61,592 nt of DNA from positions 1 to 61,592 of the forward strand of contig NZ_JACJRC010000029.1 in assembly GCF_014697025.1 (NCBI RefSeq). Reading direction: 5' to 3'. Of the stretch, positions 44,614 through 51,625 are shown one piece after another. Under the pieces are notes generated by a model. The model searched no databases. It was not told where the DNA came from and was given only the letters and a program-made list of their open reading frames with translations. A program made the position numbers and the translations under genes. The DNA is from Alkalinema sp. FACHB-956 (GTDB lineage Bacteria > Cyanobacteriota > Cyanobacteriia > Leptolyngbyales > Leptolyngbyaceae). How positions within the stretch are numbered: the first letter of the stretch is position 1; the number at the start of each line of letters is the position of its first letter.

Positions 44614-45096
44614 TTAGATGGGTTTGGAGGTTAACACCAATTGCAATTTGGCATGAATCAAATCCAACTGGGCCAATCCCAAATCCACACTGCCTTGCAC
44701 CACAATGCCCTTATTTAACAGGCGATCGAGTAATTCCAAAAGGGTGGGCTTTTCCGTCGGCTGACCGGGATAATAGCCCCCTGCTTTTGGTAATAGAGTA
44801 CCCACCTCGCCCAGATCCAGATTCAAATCCGCCGGATCAATGTCAAAAATTTTGCAAATTTCTAAAACTTGCTGTTCTAAAGTTTGTAAGCTGTCCGCTG
44901 CCCGATCGAGTTGTTCATCGGTCAGTTCTCCGCTGTCCATCCGGCGGATCACCTGTGCTTCCATCAGTTGGCGAATCAGTTCAACCACCGTCAATAACAA
45001 AGGAGCCAAACCCGCATCTCGTTTACCCGTGGGTTCGGGAACGATCGAGCCTAAATCGGGGGCGTCGGGGCTTACAGGGGAAACTTCAAGGGACAC
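44614..45096 (-). CDS. gvpK: Gas vesicle protein GvpK
   Basis: 160 residues. The core LAPLLLTVVELIRQLMEAQV is followed by RRMDSGELTDEQLDRAADSLQ and ICKIFDIDPADLNLDLGEVGTLLP, with the C-terminal LLELLDRLLNKGIVVQGSVDLGLAQLDLIHAKLQLVL resembling a GvpA-type helix-strand pair. Standard GvpK length and arrangement. An essential assembly factor in other species. Confidence 0.95.
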   Translation of the reverse strand: MSLEVSPVSPDAPDLGSIVPEPTGKRDAGLAPLLLTVVELIRQLMEAQVIRRMDSGELTDEQLDRAADSLQTLEQQVLEICKIFDIDPADLNLDLGEVGTLLPKAGGYYPGQPTEKPTLLELLDRLLNKGIVVQGSVDLGLAQLDLIHAKLQLVLTSKPI

Positions 45097-45520: not shown

Positions 45521-47155
45521 CTAGGGAATTGCAAAAAATGAACGATCGCGATGGGCTAGGCGTTTTTCTTGGGCTAACTTGCGCAGGGCATCTACGGTTT
45601 GACTGCGTTGTAGACCCAGTTCGCCTTCAATTTCGGAGAGCCGTGCCCCAGTTGTGCAAAGGGTCAGGTATTGGTAAATCTGCTCCTCGATCGATAACTG
45701 CACAGGCGGTTCGGGGGCAGCTTCAGTCTCGGCTTCCGAGGCATCGGGCAGCATGGCTAACACGTCGGTTAACTCGCTAGCGATTTCATCGGCTTCAGGC
45801 ATTGCGTCGAGTTCGTCAGCAGTCTGGACTTCAGCCACGACTTCGACTTCCAAGGCATTCCCTCGGAAATCTTGGGTTTCCGGTTCCGACTCCAACACCA
45901 TCACAAGCGGGTCGGGAGCGATTTCCACCCCAGTTTCCGTCGTTTCAGGCAACGTTGCAGACATCAGATCAGACATGAGATCGGCCATGGGGAGTTCACC
46001 CAGTCCAAAGTCATCGCTGACCAGTTCGTTACTGACCAGTTCGTTACTGACCAGTTCATTGCTTACAGATTCATCGCTGACCAGTTCATCCCCCAAGGAT
46101 TCACTAGCTGCACTGACTACTGTTGTTTGAGGAATTGAAATTGTGGAAATTTGAGTGTTGTCAACGGGTTCTGGGGAGGGCGTGGGCGCGATCGGCTGCG
46201 CGGGTTGGGGGACTGACACCGTTTGCACGGGCACCAGTTCCTTCAGAATGGATTGGCTTTCTGGAATAGGTGACGCGCCCTGCATTAAATGCCATAGCAG
46301 CGTGGTTGCTTCTTCCATCTCTAAGGGCGATCGGGACAGCAGGATGTCCTGGCAAACGTCGCGGAAATCGGGATTATGCAGCGAAATCTCGATGTCATGA
46401 TCCCGGCAGATGGTGCTGATCATCAAGCAGGACCGTAGCCCGGAGGAATTGGAGGTCTTGGTTTCCGCCCGGAAGGCTTTGACCAAACGCACAATTAAGG
46501 CTGCACTCACCCGATCGATCTCGACCTTTTGCACCAGAATTTCCTGCTGGGTGAGTTCATCCGGCTCCGGCATCGTGATGGTAATGAGGCGATCCATCAA
46601 CGCATCCTGGGTGGAGTGAACACCGCAGTATTCTTCCGGGTTGGAGGTAAAGATGGCACGGAACTGAGGGTTGACCCGCACGTATTCCACCCGATTGCTT
46701 TCCGGCGGCAGTACCAGAATTTTTTCCTCCAGCACCGACAGCAGAACGTTATTCACCTCGGGGCGCGATCGGTTGAACTCGTCATAGATGAGCGTAAAAC
46801 CTTCACGACAAGCCAAGGTAAGCCGAGAATCTACCCAGGTTTGCCGCAGTTGGTCTTCCACCTTCACCACGCTGTGAATGTAGTTATCCACCACTTTTTT
46901 GCGGGTGTAGCCCGATTGGGTCCCGATCAAATCCGACGTTTTGGCATCATCATCGCCAAACATCAGCATCATCGGACGTTCCAGCAAATCCGCTAGATGT
47001 AACGCCAGGGTGGTTTTTCCGGTTCCGGCGGGGCCCCGCAGGTGAATCGAGAATCCCGATAGTAAGTACCGCAGCGCCCGTGCCGTCACACGTTCGATCG
47101 CAGGAGTCGTGACAAATCGTCGGGGGCTGGTACGAAGTACAGTGGTCACAGGCAC
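45521..47155 (-). CDS. gvpN: Gas vesicle protein GvpN, MoxR-type AAA+ ATPase with C-terminal winged-helix extension
   Basis: 544 residues, longer than the roughly 300-400 I expect for GvpN. Residues ~1-290 are the ATPase: Walker [32 protein letters not shown], Walker [19 protein letters not shown], sensor [22 protein letters not shown]. Residues ~300-480 are an acidic low-complexity linker including SNELV repeats. Residues ~488-544 ([20 protein letters not shown]...[20 protein letters not shown]) form a winged-helix-like domain that also ends GvpC. The extension points to a docking or regulatory role; that is inference. Confidence 0.92.
46018..46092 (-). repeat. In-frame 15-nt repeat in the gvpN linker
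   Basis: Five 15-nt units of CTGACCAGTTCGTTA and variants (plus strand), encoding serial SNELV / SDELV / SDESV pentapeptides in the GvpN linker. Confidence 0.9.
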
Positions 47156-47319
47156 TTCCTCAAATAAATTGCTATCAACTAATGTCTAGACAGGGCAGGG
47201 GATGGAGACCCTTGGGCCACGCTAGGGGCAACTAGCGTTACCGAAGGTGGATTGAGCGATGGGTGATTGAGTGATGGGCCGCTAATCACCGATGGCGGAT
47301 CAACTAGCGAGCCCGATCC

Positions 47320-48843
47320 CTAACGAGCCATATAAAGGCGATCGCGCTGGATCACATGGCCTTCCCGAATCAACCGAGTCAGCGTACTGACCGCATCGGC
47401 ACGGCTCATCTCTAGAGTGGACTCCAGATCCGATAAACGAACACCTTCACTCTGTTGGATCAGATGCAACATCTGCATTTCCATCGAAGTTGCTGGCGAT
47501 GCCTGGGTTTTGGCGGTCGATCGGGATTGGGGTTCCGCAGTCTGGGCCGACGACGGTTCGAGTACTGCTGCCTCAGAAGATGCAGTCTGTACCACTTTTG
47601 CTGTCAGGGTTTGATCCACGGATTGCAGAAGTTCCTTGACACTTTCCGCATTGACCGGCGTATCCGATCGCGCCATCATCAATAAATCCGTCAGCACTTG
47701 CTCGATCGGCAGCGCTTCCTGAGGCCCTTGGGCTAGGGGCATAGCCGGAACGGGAGTCGCTGGGGTGGAAGTGGCAGACTTTTCCGACTTTTGGGGCGAT
47801 CGCTGCTTGCCGCTGGCAGGTGCTTGACTAGTCGGGACTTTACTGGGCTTGCTAGCGACTGCCGGACGGGTTTGGCTCGGGGCTTGTGTTTTAACAGGCT
47901 GTGTTTTAACAGGCTGCGTTTTAATAGACTGCGTTTTAACAGGCTGCGCTTGCATGGATGGCGTTTTCGCGGACTGAAGCACGATCGCCGGGGTGGGATC
48001 GATCTCAATCATCGCCGCTACAGCCTCTTCCTGTCGCAGGGTTTCCGGTTGGCTTGTCCCATCTCCCCAAACCGATCGTTTCAAGTCCTGCACCGATCGC
48101 GCGAGGGATTGGCGGAAGTCGGCCAAATCTTGAAACAGTTCAGCCATTTCCGCTTGACGGTCTTCGCGGGCAGTTTGTAGCTGGGCAGCGAGGTCGATCG
48201 ACCTTACTTGTCGTTGCTCAGCGTAGTCCGATAGCAGTTGGGCAACGTCCGATTGCAAGCGATCGACGGAGGCCAACAAATCCTGCCGCAACGCCTGTCC
48301 CATCGCTTGCCGATTCAAAGCATAGTCCTGTAAGGTGGCTTCCACTTCTGCTTTGAGCAAGTCCAGATCCGCCCGGAGAGTTTGGCGTAATTCCTGGTTA
48401 CTCGATTGCAAGGCTGCACGACAGTTCTGGAGGTTGGTTTGCAGTTCGGCTGCCATCTGCTGTCGGGCAACGGCCGCTTGGTTGAGGAAATCTGCGGTTT
48501 GGGCTTGCAGTTGGGTGACAAATAAGCTGCGATCGATCGCGGATTGTTGAGCCTCGGCTTGGCGACGATCGCACAGGGTTGCTAGCATCTCTTGCACATC
48601 GTCTTGACGCTGTTGTTGATCTGCCTGTAACCCCGCCTGAAAACACTGAAACTCAAGGCGACGCAATTGGTCATCTTGAGCCAGGTTTGATCGAATATCT
48701 GCTAATTCCTGTTGAATTTTAGACGCCATTTTCGCGTGGGATTGGCGGTTAGTGTCACGGGTTGTAGCCACCCGTTGTTGCCGTGCCCTGAGCCCTTGCT
48801 GACGCCGTTGCCGTTCCTGTTGCCAAATATCTTTGAGAGCCAT
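47320..48843 (-). CDS. gvpC: Gas vesicle protein GvpC with long linker and C-terminal winged-helix domain
   Basis: 507 residues, far longer than typical cyanobacterial GvpC (about 150-250). Residues 1-265 hold the GvpC part: MALKDIWQQERQRRQQGLRA and imperfect ~33-residue amphipathic repeats (e.g. LQTAREDRQAEMAELFQDLADFRQSLARSVQDLKRSVWG) that clamp ribs of the GvpA shell. Residues ~270-450 are a Pro/Lys/Gln/Thr-rich linker with KTQPV repeats. The last ~56 residues (SMEMQMLHLIQQSEGVRLSD then LESTLEMSRADAVSTLTRL, ending RDRLYMAR) are a winged-helix-like domain homologous to the GvpN tail. Directly follows gvpA. Confidence 0.9.
   Translation of the reverse strand: MALKDIWQQERQRRQQGLRARQQRVATTRDTNRQSHAKMASKIQQELADIRSNLAQDDQLRRLEFQCFQAGLQADQQQRQDDVQEMLATLCDRRQAEAQQSAIDRSLFVTQLQAQTADFLNQAAVARQQMAAELQTNLQNCRAALQSSNQELRQTLRADLDLLKAEVEATLQDYALNRQAMGQALRQDLLASVDRLQSDVAQLLSDYAEQRQVRSIDLAAQLQTAREDRQAEMAELFQDLADFRQSLARSVQDLKRSVWGDGTSQPETLRQEEAVAAMIEIDPTPAIVLQSAKTPSMQAQPVKTQSIKTQPVKTQPVKTQAPSQTRPAVASKPSKVPTSQAPASGKQRSPQKSEKSATSTPATPVPAMPLAQGPQEALPIEQVLTDLLMMARSDTPVNAESVKELLQSVDQTLTAKVVQTASSEAAVLEPSSAQTAEPQSRSTAKTQASPATSMEMQMLHLIQQSEGVRLSDLESTLEMSRADAVSTLTRLIREGHVIQRDRLYMAR
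47885..47944 (-). repeat. In-frame 15-nt repeat in the gvpC linker
   Basis: Four 15-nt units (plus strand TGTGTTTTAACAGGC, twice, then TGCGTTTTAATAGAC and TGCGTTTTAACAGGC) encoding KTQPV / KTQSI pentapeptides. Confidence 0.9.
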
Positions 48844-48913: not shown

Positions 48914-49132
48914 TTATGCAGCGGGTACTGCAGCTTGGGAAGTCAGGCCCACCGCTTCGGCATACTTCAGGTAGGTTTCTACGGAGGCAATGACGACACG
49001 AGCTTCGATGGAGAGTAGCTCAATCCCTACAAGAGAAACCCGTACCCATGCATCAACCACAATCCCTTTGTCCAGGATGCGATCGACCACTTCAGCCAAG
49101 CTAGAAGAAGAGTTCACTTTTTCAACAGCCAT
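48914..49132 (-). CDS. gvpA: Major gas vesicle shell protein GvpA
   Basis: 72 residues, canonical length and sequence: [20 protein letters not shown], then [43 protein letters not shown] and an Ala-rich tail. It assembles into the ribbed gas-permeable wall. Only one gvpA copy is present. gvpC follows 70 nt later. A 271-nt leader lies upstream. Confidence 0.98.
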
Positions 49133-49403: not shown

Positions 49404-49670
49404 CTAACCTTGTTGAACTCGCCGTTCAAATTCTTCACGAGTTTGTTCAACTAAGGTATTGGCCGCGATCGCGATTTCCGGATGAGCCTCTTGGAGCCAA
49501 GCCAAAAGTCGGGCGAGTTGGGCATTGCGTAATTCCAAATCCGCTTGAAAAACCGTTGCGATCGCCATTTGCTTGGCGTAATCCGCCGGATGCCCTTGGG
49601 CAATAAAGGCAGCCGTTAAGGCCGTTAATGCTTGCTGACGAACGGGGTCATTTTGGGTATGGGTAAACAT
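49404..49670 (-). CDS. Small helical protein between the AAA ATPase and gvpA
   Basis: 88 residues from ATG 49670 (MFTHTQNDPVRQQALTALTA); the frame is open 21 codons further. Predicted all-helical: AAFIAQGHPADYAKQMAIATVFQADLELRNAQLARLLAWLQEAHPEI and a final VEQTREEFERRVQQG. No motif or known Gvp family recognised. It sits on the same strand 90 nt after the ATPase gene and before gvpA, so co-function with gas vesicles is plausible by position only. Confidence 0.6.
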   Translation of the reverse strand: MFTHTQNDPVRQQALTALTAAFIAQGHPADYAKQMAIATVFQADLELRNAQLARLLAWLQEAHPEIAIAANTLVEQTREEFERRVQQG

Positions 49671-49759
49671 GGGATTGAGCCTAATGCATTGATGAAAAAA
49701 GGTCGTACTTTGATCGAAAATACGATCGAACAATTTGATCGTTGCAATTGATGAGTTAC

Positions 49760-51625
49760 TTACGATTCCACCGTTTTTTGGTTGGCTAGCACCTGATAGG
49801 CTGTCTCAAAGTCCTCTGGCGTAATCCGAAGGGCACTGGGGTCGGTCTGACCTTGAGCACGATAGCGACGGATGGATTGCAGAGCGGCTTGATTACTGAG
49901 TAGCGCTAAATCAGCCCCATTCCAGCCTTCAGTTTGCACCGCAAGATTGACTAAATCGACCGCTTCTAAGGGTCGATCGGCGTTGTGGACTTGAAGAATG
50001 GCCAAGCGACTTGCTTGATCTGGTAAATCAACCTTGATTTGCAGATCCAATCGTCCAGCCCGCAGTAAAGCTGCATCCAAGGCATCGGGCCGGTTGGTTG
50101 CACCGATGAGTAACACCGTTCCCGCATCTTGTAAGCCATCTAGCTCGGTTAACAACTGCCCCACCACCCGATCGCTGACACCAGAATCCCCGTTAAATTT
50201 GCCACGGGCCGGAGCCAGGGTATCGATTTCGTCAATAAATACGACACAGGGGGATGCTTGCCGTGCTTTGGTAAACAAATCGCGCACTTCCTGCTCGGCA
50301 GCTCCCACCCAACGGCTGAGCAATTCTGGGCCATTGACCGCAATAAAATTTGCCCGTGCTTGGGACGCGACTGCTTTGGCTAGCAACGTTTTACCCGTAC
50401 CCGGTGGCCCCCACAGCAGCAGCCCGCGCGGAGCCTTGGCCCCCGTTTGTTGATAGAGCTCTGGGTAAAGCAAAGCCCCTTCCACCGATTCCTGAAGGGT
50501 TTTCTTGATTTCCTCCAGACCGCCAATTTGCTCCCAGGAGACGTTGGGCGATTCCACTTCCACCGATCGCAGAACCGAGGGCTTAATCTCTTTTAACGCT
50601 TCCAGAAAGTCTGTTTGCTCTAGGGTCAACGTATCGGGTACGGCGGCTTGTAGGGAGGGCACTTGGCGACGCAGGGCAAGATAGGCAGCTTTTTGGCAGA
50701 CGGCTTTTAAATCAGCCCCCACCATTCCGACGCAGAGATCGGCGATCGCGTCCAAATCCACCGATTCAGCTAAGGGCATCGATCGGGTTTGAATGGCCAA
50801 AATTTCCAAGCGTCCGGCTCGATCGGGCACTCGGTACTGAATTTCCCGATCGAAGCGACCGGGACGCCGTAGGGCCGGATCGAGATGATCGGGGCGATTG
50901 GTCGCCGCGAGGACAATCACCCCCGTCGTTTTGGCAAACCCATCCATCAGAGTGAGTAGCTGCGCCACGACCCGTTTTTCCACCTCCCCTTCCACCTTGC
51001 TGCGATCGGGGGCAAGGCTATCAATTTCATCAATGAACACAATACAGGGAGCCGCTTTCGCTGCTTTTTCAAAGACCGTTCGTAGGCGCGTTTCCGCCTC
51101 GCCGTAGAACTTGCCCATCACCTCCGGCCCTGCGATCGCAATGTAATTCACCCCCAATGCCTCCGCCAGCAGGCGAGCGGTCAAGGTTTTACCTGTGCCC
51201 GGTGGCCCCACCAGCAACACCCCCTTGGGTGGCTCCAGACCCAGTTTTGCCAGCAATTCTGGCCGTTTGAGCGGGAGTTCAACCAATTCCCGCAGTTCCC
51301 GCAGGGTTTCACCCAGTCCACCGACATCCTGGAGCGAGGGGGCGGGTTGGGGCGAACTTGTTGGGGTCGAATCGGCAGGGGGCGCAGCGGGATTGCTGGG
51401 AGGATGCGTGATGATCACCACGTCTGGGTCGGAACTTGGAGTCGGTGCATCAGTTTGCAAGCGACTGACGCCAATCCCCGCATTGGATGCAGTGCGTCGG
51501 GGAATACTACTGAGACGGCGGGAGGAAATTTGCACATCGGTTTTAATTTCGCCGCTGTCGATTTTGTCTTCGAGTGCCTTTGCCAGTTCTAGCAATTGCT
51601 CAAAGCCCTTGAATAAATCGCTCAT
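49760..51625 (-). CDS. CDC48-like double AAA+ ATPase at the head of the gas vesicle cluster
   Basis: 621 residues. Short N-terminal helix (FKGFEQLLELAKALEDKIDS), a Pro-rich linker (~60-100), then two complete AAA domains. D1 has GPPGTGKTLTARLLAEALGV and FIDEIDSLAPDRSK; D2 has GPPGTGKTLLAKAVASQARA and FIDEIDTLAPARGK, each followed by NRPD...R.GR sensor/arginine-finger regions. This is the VAT/CDC48 architecture but with a tiny N-domain, so it probably remodels or unfolds protein complexes. It lies upstream of gvpA on the same strand; a role in vesicle assembly or turnover is inferred from position. Confidence 0.9.
   Translation of the reverse strand: MSDLFKGFEQLLELAKALEDKIDSGEIKTDVQISSRRLSSIPRRTASNAGIGVSRLQTDAPTPSSDPDVVIITHPPSNPAAPPADSTPTSSPQPAPSLQDVGGLGETLRELRELVELPLKRPELLAKLGLEPPKGVLLVGPPGTGKTLTARLLAEALGVNYIAIAGPEVMGKFYGEAETRLRTVFEKAAKAAPCIVFIDEIDSLAPDRSKVEGEVEKRVVAQLLTLMDGFAKTTGVIVLAATNRPDHLDPALRRPGRFDREIQYRVPDRAGRLEILAIQTRSMPLAESVDLDAIADLCVGMVGADLKAVCQKAAYLALRRQVPSLQAAVPDTLTLEQTDFLEALKEIKPSVLRSVEVESPNVSWEQIGGLEEIKKTLQESVEGALLYPELYQQTGAKAPRGLLLWGPPGTGKTLLAKAVASQARANFIAVNGPELLSRWVGAAEQEVRDLFTKARQASPCVVFIDEIDTLAPARGKFNGDSGVSDRVVGQLLTELDGLQDAGTVLLIGATNRPDALDAALLRAGRLDLQIKVDLPDQASRLAILQVHNADRPLEAVDLVNLAVQTEGWNGADLALLSNQAALQSIRRYRAQGQTDPSALRITPEDFETAYQVLANQKTVES

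Follow-up and report, generated by a model that had tools for sequence, protein, structure and literature searches.

The window analysed here, 61,592 nucleotides of contig NZ_JACJRC010000029.1 of the cyanobacterium Alkalinema sp. FACHB-956 (NCBI RefSeq assembly GCF_014697025.1), carries a gas-vesicle cluster in which gvpC and gvpN, coding for the clamp protein of the vesicle shell and for an AAA+ ATPase, are the subject of this work. Besides these two genes the cluster contains gvpA, gvpJ, gvpK, gvpF, gvpG and a second GvpL/F-type gene. An earlier note on this DNA had claimed that both proteins end in a matching, winged-helix-like segment of about 56 residues, and both open reading frames and their C-terminal tails were confirmed at their places (Table 1).

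A domain common to GvpC and GvpN

At 396.4 bits (cut-off 266.8; residues 14-275, E 5.7e-119) GvpN is a member of TIGR02640. Its ATPase part matches NorQ and CbbQ/NirQ/NorQ chains in a PDB sequence search, and the matches at E 1e-5, four distinct sequences, are all located in that part. GvpC has no PDB sequence match at E 0.1 and no curated Pfam or NCBIfam GvpC model among its matches; it was named because of its 33-residue repeats, its weak similarity to proteins in the GvpC position elsewhere and its place between gvpA and gvpN. The period of the repeats is clear, as 33 was the best self-offset of residues 1-262 among the offsets tried (10-79), with none of 300 shuffles as high.

Comparison of the full-length proteins by BLASTP gives a single significant segment, residues 442-506 of GvpC against 473-542 of GvpN (34% identity, E 8e-6). 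The tail-tail score of 76 stands against a shuffled mean of 23.2 (standard deviation 4.5), and a chance resemblance is rejected since none of 5000 shuffles was as high. The linkers that precede the tails show no similarity to each other (473 of 500 shuffles as high), which rejects the duplication of a linker-plus-tail unit, nor do the GvpC rib and the GvpN ATPase part (328 of 500 shuffles as high). A phmmer search with either window tail alone recovers both the GvpC and the GvpN tails of other species. Judged from sequence comparison, the last ~56 residues of GvpC and of GvpN are homologous domains, and the claim of matching segments stands.

The AlphaFold models of the tails, which are not mutually independent because their input alignments of 53 (GvpC) and 67 (GvpN) tails mix both proteins, have the same order of three helices followed by a two-stranded wing. 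In the GvpC tail (predicted local distance difference test, pLDDT, 92.0) the helices span residues 4-15, 21-28 and 32-45 and the strands 48-51 and 54-57; in the GvpN tail (pLDDT 94.8) the helices span residues 5-15, 22-29 and 33-45 and the strands 49-52 and 55-58. Foldseek finds PDB chains common to both models, with template modelling (TM) scores for the GvpC and GvpN tails, respectively, of 0.83 and 0.80 (1mkm_A), 0.88 and 0.84 (3eco_B), 0.87 and 0.88 (1sfx_A) and 0.87 and 0.79 (4wcg_A); the scores reach about 0.9, yet no match has an E value below 0.001. With three helices, a two-stranded wing, confident models and matches to solved winged helices, the tail of GvpC and GvpN is by prediction a winged helix, as the earlier note had suspected. 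It had also proposed superposing the two tail structures; judged by their common PDB chains rather than by pairwise superposition, models that fail to superpose were not seen.

The window tails score under the Pfam cut-offs of MarR_2 (25.4 against 27) and TrmB (16.2 against 25.6) and are not assigned to these families; no curated model passes its cut-off on either tail. Among eight relatives scanned whole, one passes the TrmB cut-off, the GvpN of locus L069 (28.7 against 25.6). Residue counts, charges and the tail tree are based on an alignment, A1, of 67 full-length tails (28 GvpN, 39 GvpC), drawn from 31 GvpN and 44 GvpC tails reaching profile position 55 plus the window's two, with the omission of GvpN from L097, L100, L110 and L111 and of GvpC from L050, L054, L055, L059, L100 and L110. 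Pfam TrmB is matched at E 0.01 or better by 47 of the 67 rows (best 2.9e-9). R33, V37, L40, L43 and Y56 are invariant in GvpC tails of distant lineages (39/39 full-length rows). Column 38, in the third helix, is usually acidic: 32 of the 39 GvpC tails have D there, and 21 of the 28 GvpN tails have either D or E. The mean net charge is near neutral (-0.6 for the 28 GvpN tails, -0.5 for the 39 GvpC tails).

Distribution, descent and linkers of the tail

A hidden Markov model seeded from the window's two tails, both of which remain rows of the profile, finds only GvpN (1.0e-21) and GvpC (1.5e-20) among all 44 candidates of the own genome, the next E value being 0.16. Across the class, with up to 16 candidates scored per genome, a tail match at E 1e-5 or better occurs in 117 of 388 genomes (two matches in 91, one in 26, never more), and GvpN is above its cut-off in 169 of the 388. 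A survey of 146 phylum genomes in which every candidate was scored likewise gave a maximum of two matches per genome. Among the 150 tail places listed, of 208, 143 share a contig with gvpN and are at most 1656 bp away from it, and the remaining seven are in genomes without a gvpN place among those listed. GvpN places are listed for 150 genomes, of which 109 have at least one tail match (100 by listed place and nine by the genome table) and 41 have none; one of the nine, the weakest match of the class (G356, 9.7e-6), is unsure because similar weak matches occur outside the class. The tail is restricted to GvpC and GvpN in the genomes sampled. A general cyanobacterial winged-helix family is unsupported in the class sampled, the own genome having only two members and no genome more than two among the up to 16 candidates scored in each. 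Twelve of the 146 phylum genomes, all outside the class (G397, G401, G419 and nine more), contain frames of 140-202 amino acids with weak profile matches (E 1.1e-7 to 1.0e-5), perhaps ordinary winged-helix regulators.

Tail states were entered by hand from the searches in a table of 86 loci, four of them outgroups. The 82 cyanobacterial loci comprise the window, a Nostoc sphaeroides plasmid and 80 named loci, the best 80 of 120 relatives by GvpN match, a sample that leans towards tail-bearing relatives. Both tails are present in 36 loci, the GvpC tail only in 10, the GvpN tail only in eight and neither in 22; in six GvpC was unseen in the stretch, so that 76 are scorable for both. The GvpN tail accompanies the GvpC tail in 36 of 46 loci and is found in 8 of the 30 without it (Fisher p 1.3e-5, confounded by descent). 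The profile search over gas-vesicle clusters suggested by the earlier note gave a mixed answer: the tail is widespread in Leptolyngbya-type loci and absent from seven Microcystis loci, which are without both tails, and from three Dolichospermum loci. No GvpN tail was found in the four non-cyanobacterial stretches searched, from Halobacterium, Spartinivicinus, Octadecabacter and Methylocella (no E value better than 0.3). The planktic Sphaerospermopsis keeps its GvpN tail and Calothrix brevissima is without both, exceptions for which we do not claim a clean planktic/benthic rule.

On a quick tree of the GvpN ATPase parts, with long outgroup branches and many open forks, at least 11 changes of state are required for the GvpN tail and at least two for the GvpC tail. 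The tail tree itself, built from few columns, groups mostly by protein and not by species, with 3 label changes against 21.7 in shuffles; monophyly of the GvpC tails is not rejected (approximately unbiased test, p-AU 0.226). Since the tail tree groups by protein, the duplication looks old and the copies diverged. An ancient duplication inside the gvp cluster is the probable origin of the two copies. Recent gene conversion between the neighbours is unsupported, as the tails group by protein and persist on both proteins in genome G333, where rearrangement of the cluster has put about 5 kb between gvpC and gvpN.

Traces of loss are seen at three loci. In Arthrospira sp. PCC 9108 (L098, 4894-5878, +) the GvpC tail lies out of the rib frame and ends before the wing, with the GvpN tail intact; it looks like a decaying tail, and the locus was scored as tail-bearing despite the break. 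In Anabaena sp. FACHB-1237 (L108, 4814-4933, +) a tail-like remnant (E 0.011) occupies a separate short frame just after gvpN, and a similar weak remnant follows gvpN in L010 (2485-2604, +). These two remnants probably reflect recent loss of the GvpN tail; L108 was scored as tail-less despite its remnant.

The linkers of the window measure 187 (GvpC) and 181 (GvpN) residues. Of the description given in the earlier note, linkers of about 180 residues built from pentapeptide repeats, the length was right and the composition was overstated: each linker has four units, 20 residues in all (QPVKT-type in GvpC, SNELV-type in GvpN), and the remainder is proline- and alanine-rich in GvpC and acidic in GvpN. 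The net charge is +1 over 190 residues in GvpC (cut after VWG) and -38 over 187 in GvpN. For the charges among relatives, L098 was omitted, as were loci with neither a VWG nor a VFG motif, and 20 residues past the ATPase match were skipped. Of 45 GvpN linkers, 44 have a negative net charge (median -15), whereas the proline- and alanine-rich GvpC linkers are about neutral (median +2; 26 positive, 13 negative and 4 zero, n=43), and in 32 of 33 paired loci the GvpC linker is the more positive. The length varies widely among relatives, 24-190 residues in GvpC and 18-385 in GvpN, which fits tethers that are probably disordered. The opposition of acidic GvpN and near-neutral GvpC linkers would be a possible electrostatic aid to docking. 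An amphipathic-looking motif, IEDFLKxVIQES-like, was noticed by eye in the GvpC linker of the window (residues ~381-394) and of its near relatives L032 (5269-6183, +) and L033 (3346-4233, +), and may be a docking peptide.

Table 1. Features of the gvpC-gvpN region, in positions of the window
Feature	Position	Strand	Basis or remark
gvpC open reading frame, whole	47320-48843	-	507 aa
gvpN open reading frame, whole	45521-47155	-	544 aa, GTG start
GvpC rib region, residues 1-262	48058..48843	-	MALKDIWQQ start, end near VWG motif; period 33; between gvpA and gvpN
GvpC linker, residues 263-449	47497..48057	-	about neutral; no similarity to GvpN linker
Four QPVKT-type pentapeptides, GvpC linker residues 300-319	47887..47946	-	pattern scan
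GvpC C-terminal tail, predicted winged helix, residues 450-507 and stop codon	47320..47496	-	AlphaFold model; tail profile
GvpN AAA+ (NorQ/CbbQ-like) ATPase part, residues 1-303, GTG start	46247..47155	-	TIGR02640; PDB sequence search
GvpN linker, residues 304-484	45704..46246	-	strongly acidic
Four SNELV-type pentapeptides, GvpN linker residues 360-379	46019..46078	-	pattern scan
GvpN C-terminal tail, predicted winged helix, residues 485-544 and stop codon	45521..45703	-	AlphaFold model; tail profile
gvpA, shell protein, upstream of gvpC	48914..49132	-	72-aa open reading frame; as GvpA query finds relatives in most locus stretches

Three neighbours of the two genes deserve mention. A CDC48-like double AAA ATPase is encoded upstream of gvpA (49760-51625, -), with a close relative in L120 (7298-9139, -), where it sits within a rearranged gvp cluster. 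Such a gene was seen in at least 13 of the 80 named loci, whose stretches differ in length, and because of these occurrences it may be a gas-vesicle accessory. Between it and gvpA lies an open reading frame of 109 amino acids (49404-49733, -) that matches nothing in Pfam, NCBIfam or PHROG. Relatives of it (phmmer, E 1e-3) occur in 21 of the 80 named loci, Nostocales included, counted irrespective of their position within the loci. GvpK (44614-45096, -) ends in a GvpA-like domain that matches Gas_vesicle at 54.2 bits (cut-off 25), and the C-terminus of protein K of the Nostoc sphaeroides plasmid is similar.

A putative docking module and its rivals

How GvpN drives elongation and meets the shell is an open question of the field (PMC11445434). 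ATPase activity is known for Anabaena GvpN (PMC7204071), and vesicles remain small without gvpN (PMC9372576; PMC11445434). In Halobacterium salinarum a C-terminal GvpC fragment self-associates and binds GvpN and GvpO, pulldowns via GvpN or GvpO contain the GvpC monomer and no dimer, and the authors suggest competition of GvpN/GvpO with the dimerisation of GvpC (PMC9372576). The proposal of a review is that the GvpC mesh is interrupted by GvpN or GvpO at the sites of GvpA insertion (PMC9501494).

By analogy with Halobacterium we propose, with slightly more confidence than doubt, that the tail is a protein-docking module joining GvpN to the GvpC-coated shell for elongation. In the model, the GvpC ribs over the GvpA shell would expose the tail many times over, each copy on a flexible arm. 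The AAA+ protein GvpN, with its acidic tether and homologous tail, would be brought to the coated shell in one of two ways, through pairing with GvpC tails or through competition for the same partner. Pairing or competing would loosen or locally interrupt the GvpC mesh, and the interruption would permit GvpA insertion and elongation of the vesicle. The tail is a conserved yet losable piece of the domain architecture of known gas-vesicle proteins; for its function we infer protein binding, the partner, disordered tethers and the step in elongation. A bolder version, which we regard as doubtful, makes the GvpN tail a mimic of the GvpC tail: tail-tail pairing would cross-link the ribs, and the AAA+ ring, with several acidic-tethered copies, would unzip the belt at the growth zone, cyanobacteria and haloarchaea having independently used two borrowed DNA-binder folds.

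Several observations weigh against docking: (i) 18 of the 76 scorable loci have a single tail, hence the tails are not obligate partners; (ii) GvpN-tail and GvpC-tail distances hardly covary once ATPase distances are given (partial Mantel correlation 0.13, reached in 177 of 2000 permutations; based on 19 of the 36 loci that carry both), so that co-evolution, tried as a sign of pairing, was not significant; (iii) the identity between GvpN and GvpC tails is hardly higher within a locus (0.381) than between loci (0.364); (iv) the profile match stops at or before position 54 of 60 in 13 of 45 GvpN tails, and for this reason their wing end appears absent or altered; and (v) the nearest structures are mostly DNA-binding winged helices. 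That the tails dock to one another or to a shared partner, as the earlier note suggested, is plausible given the Halobacterium parallel, but the single-tail loci imply that a fixed GvpC-GvpN plug is not required in every locus; the ATP-driven reinforcement of the shell that the note envisaged is a hypothesis.

The single-tail loci, the non-covarying distances and the shortened GvpN profile matches fit a common third partner equally well. In this rival, which we consider possible at about half the strength of our proposal, both tails bind one third Gvp protein and never each other, and the receptor delivers GvpC and GvpN to the growth site. The lone loss of either tail and the weak tail-tail covariation would be explained, and GvpL of Halobacterium contacts both GvpC and GvpN (PMC9372576). 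Candidates are GvpL/F, GvpJ, GvpK and the neighbouring CDC48-like ATPase, although the gene of the last was seen in the minority of named loci given above.

Binding of the tails to DNA or RNA, either to tether vesicles or GvpN to the nucleoid or to regulate the gvp operon, appears improbable. The fold and profile matches do point to MarR, TrmB, IclR and Z-alpha proteins, with TrmB matched by most A1 rows and its cut-off exceeded by the L069 GvpN. However, DNA-binding winged helices are usually basic, and the tails have a mean net charge of about -0.5 and a common acidic residue in the third helix (column 38). Moreover, GvpC is a known shell-surface protein (PMC9372576).

That the tails are a residual decoration with little present function, persisting by common descent, is very improbable: the many changes of state of the GvpN tail, the broken remnants of L098 (GvpC) and L108 (GvpN) and the tail-less Microcystis loci would agree with it, but not the residues invariant in GvpC tails across distant lineages nor the mere two changes that the GvpC tail needs on the tree.

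Returning to the docking proposal, a domain of about 56 residues common to motor and shell clamp would be a direct handle on the system, open to expression in isolation, to deletion and to transfer from one protein to another. It bears on the vesicles engineered for ultrasound imaging, in which GvpC is usually the altered part. The tail has been lost unevenly, which suggests a testable connection with the permanence of floating in a lineage: it is reported on the 40-kDa GvpC of non-planktic Planktothrix (PMC5259702), is broken in the one Arthrospira GvpC examined and is absent in the Microcystis and Dolichospermum loci examined.

Relation to known systems

The similarity between GvpC and GvpN is in itself not new. 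According to the accessible part of a 2017 paper, the 40-kDa GvpC of non-planktic Planktothrix has a C-terminal stretch of 28 residues 64% identical to Planktothrix GvpN, as well as a 60-residue similarity to Geitlerinema GvpC; the text places the stretch at the C-terminus, whereas a figure legend speaks of an N-terminal domain (PMC5259702). It is probably the same domain as the tails described here, although that part of the paper names no domain, fold, survey or function. In the open literature, subscription papers and preprints being outside the search, no description of a winged-helix domain on GvpC or GvpN was found in the text accessible. Within the reach of that search, the new points are the existence of a discrete domain with a predicted winged-helix fold, its limitation to two proteins among the sampled genomes, its occurrence across loci and the character of the linkers.

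The closest parallel is the GvpC of Halobacterium, which likewise carries a small globular, DNA-binder-like C-terminal domain after repeats and an acidic stretch. It differs in being a zinc finger, not a winged helix: the authors call it a zinc-finger motif (PMC9372576), and in the pNRC100 protein (L115, 1667-2812, +) the C-terminal ROS_MUCR match is above the Pfam cut-off (28.3 against 25.4). The tail profile finds nothing at E 10 or better in stretch L115, GvpC and GvpN included. With ROS_MUCR there and a winged helix here, different DNA-binder-like folds would therefore occupy the same end of GvpC. The use of a winged helix as a protein hub has a precedent in the docking domains of RPA, namely RPA32C and the winged helix of archaeal RPA (PMC11686378). 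The RPA32C chains 1dpu and 4ou0 are among the fold matches of the tails, and Pfam RPA_C scores 16.9 on the GvpC tail against a cut-off of 22.6; there is no sign of common descent between the RPA domains and the Gvp tails. The TrmB and MarR winged helices share with the tails their fold and give the best profile matches, but the Gvp tails fall mostly below the family cut-offs, are near neutral and are fused to gas-vesicle proteins.

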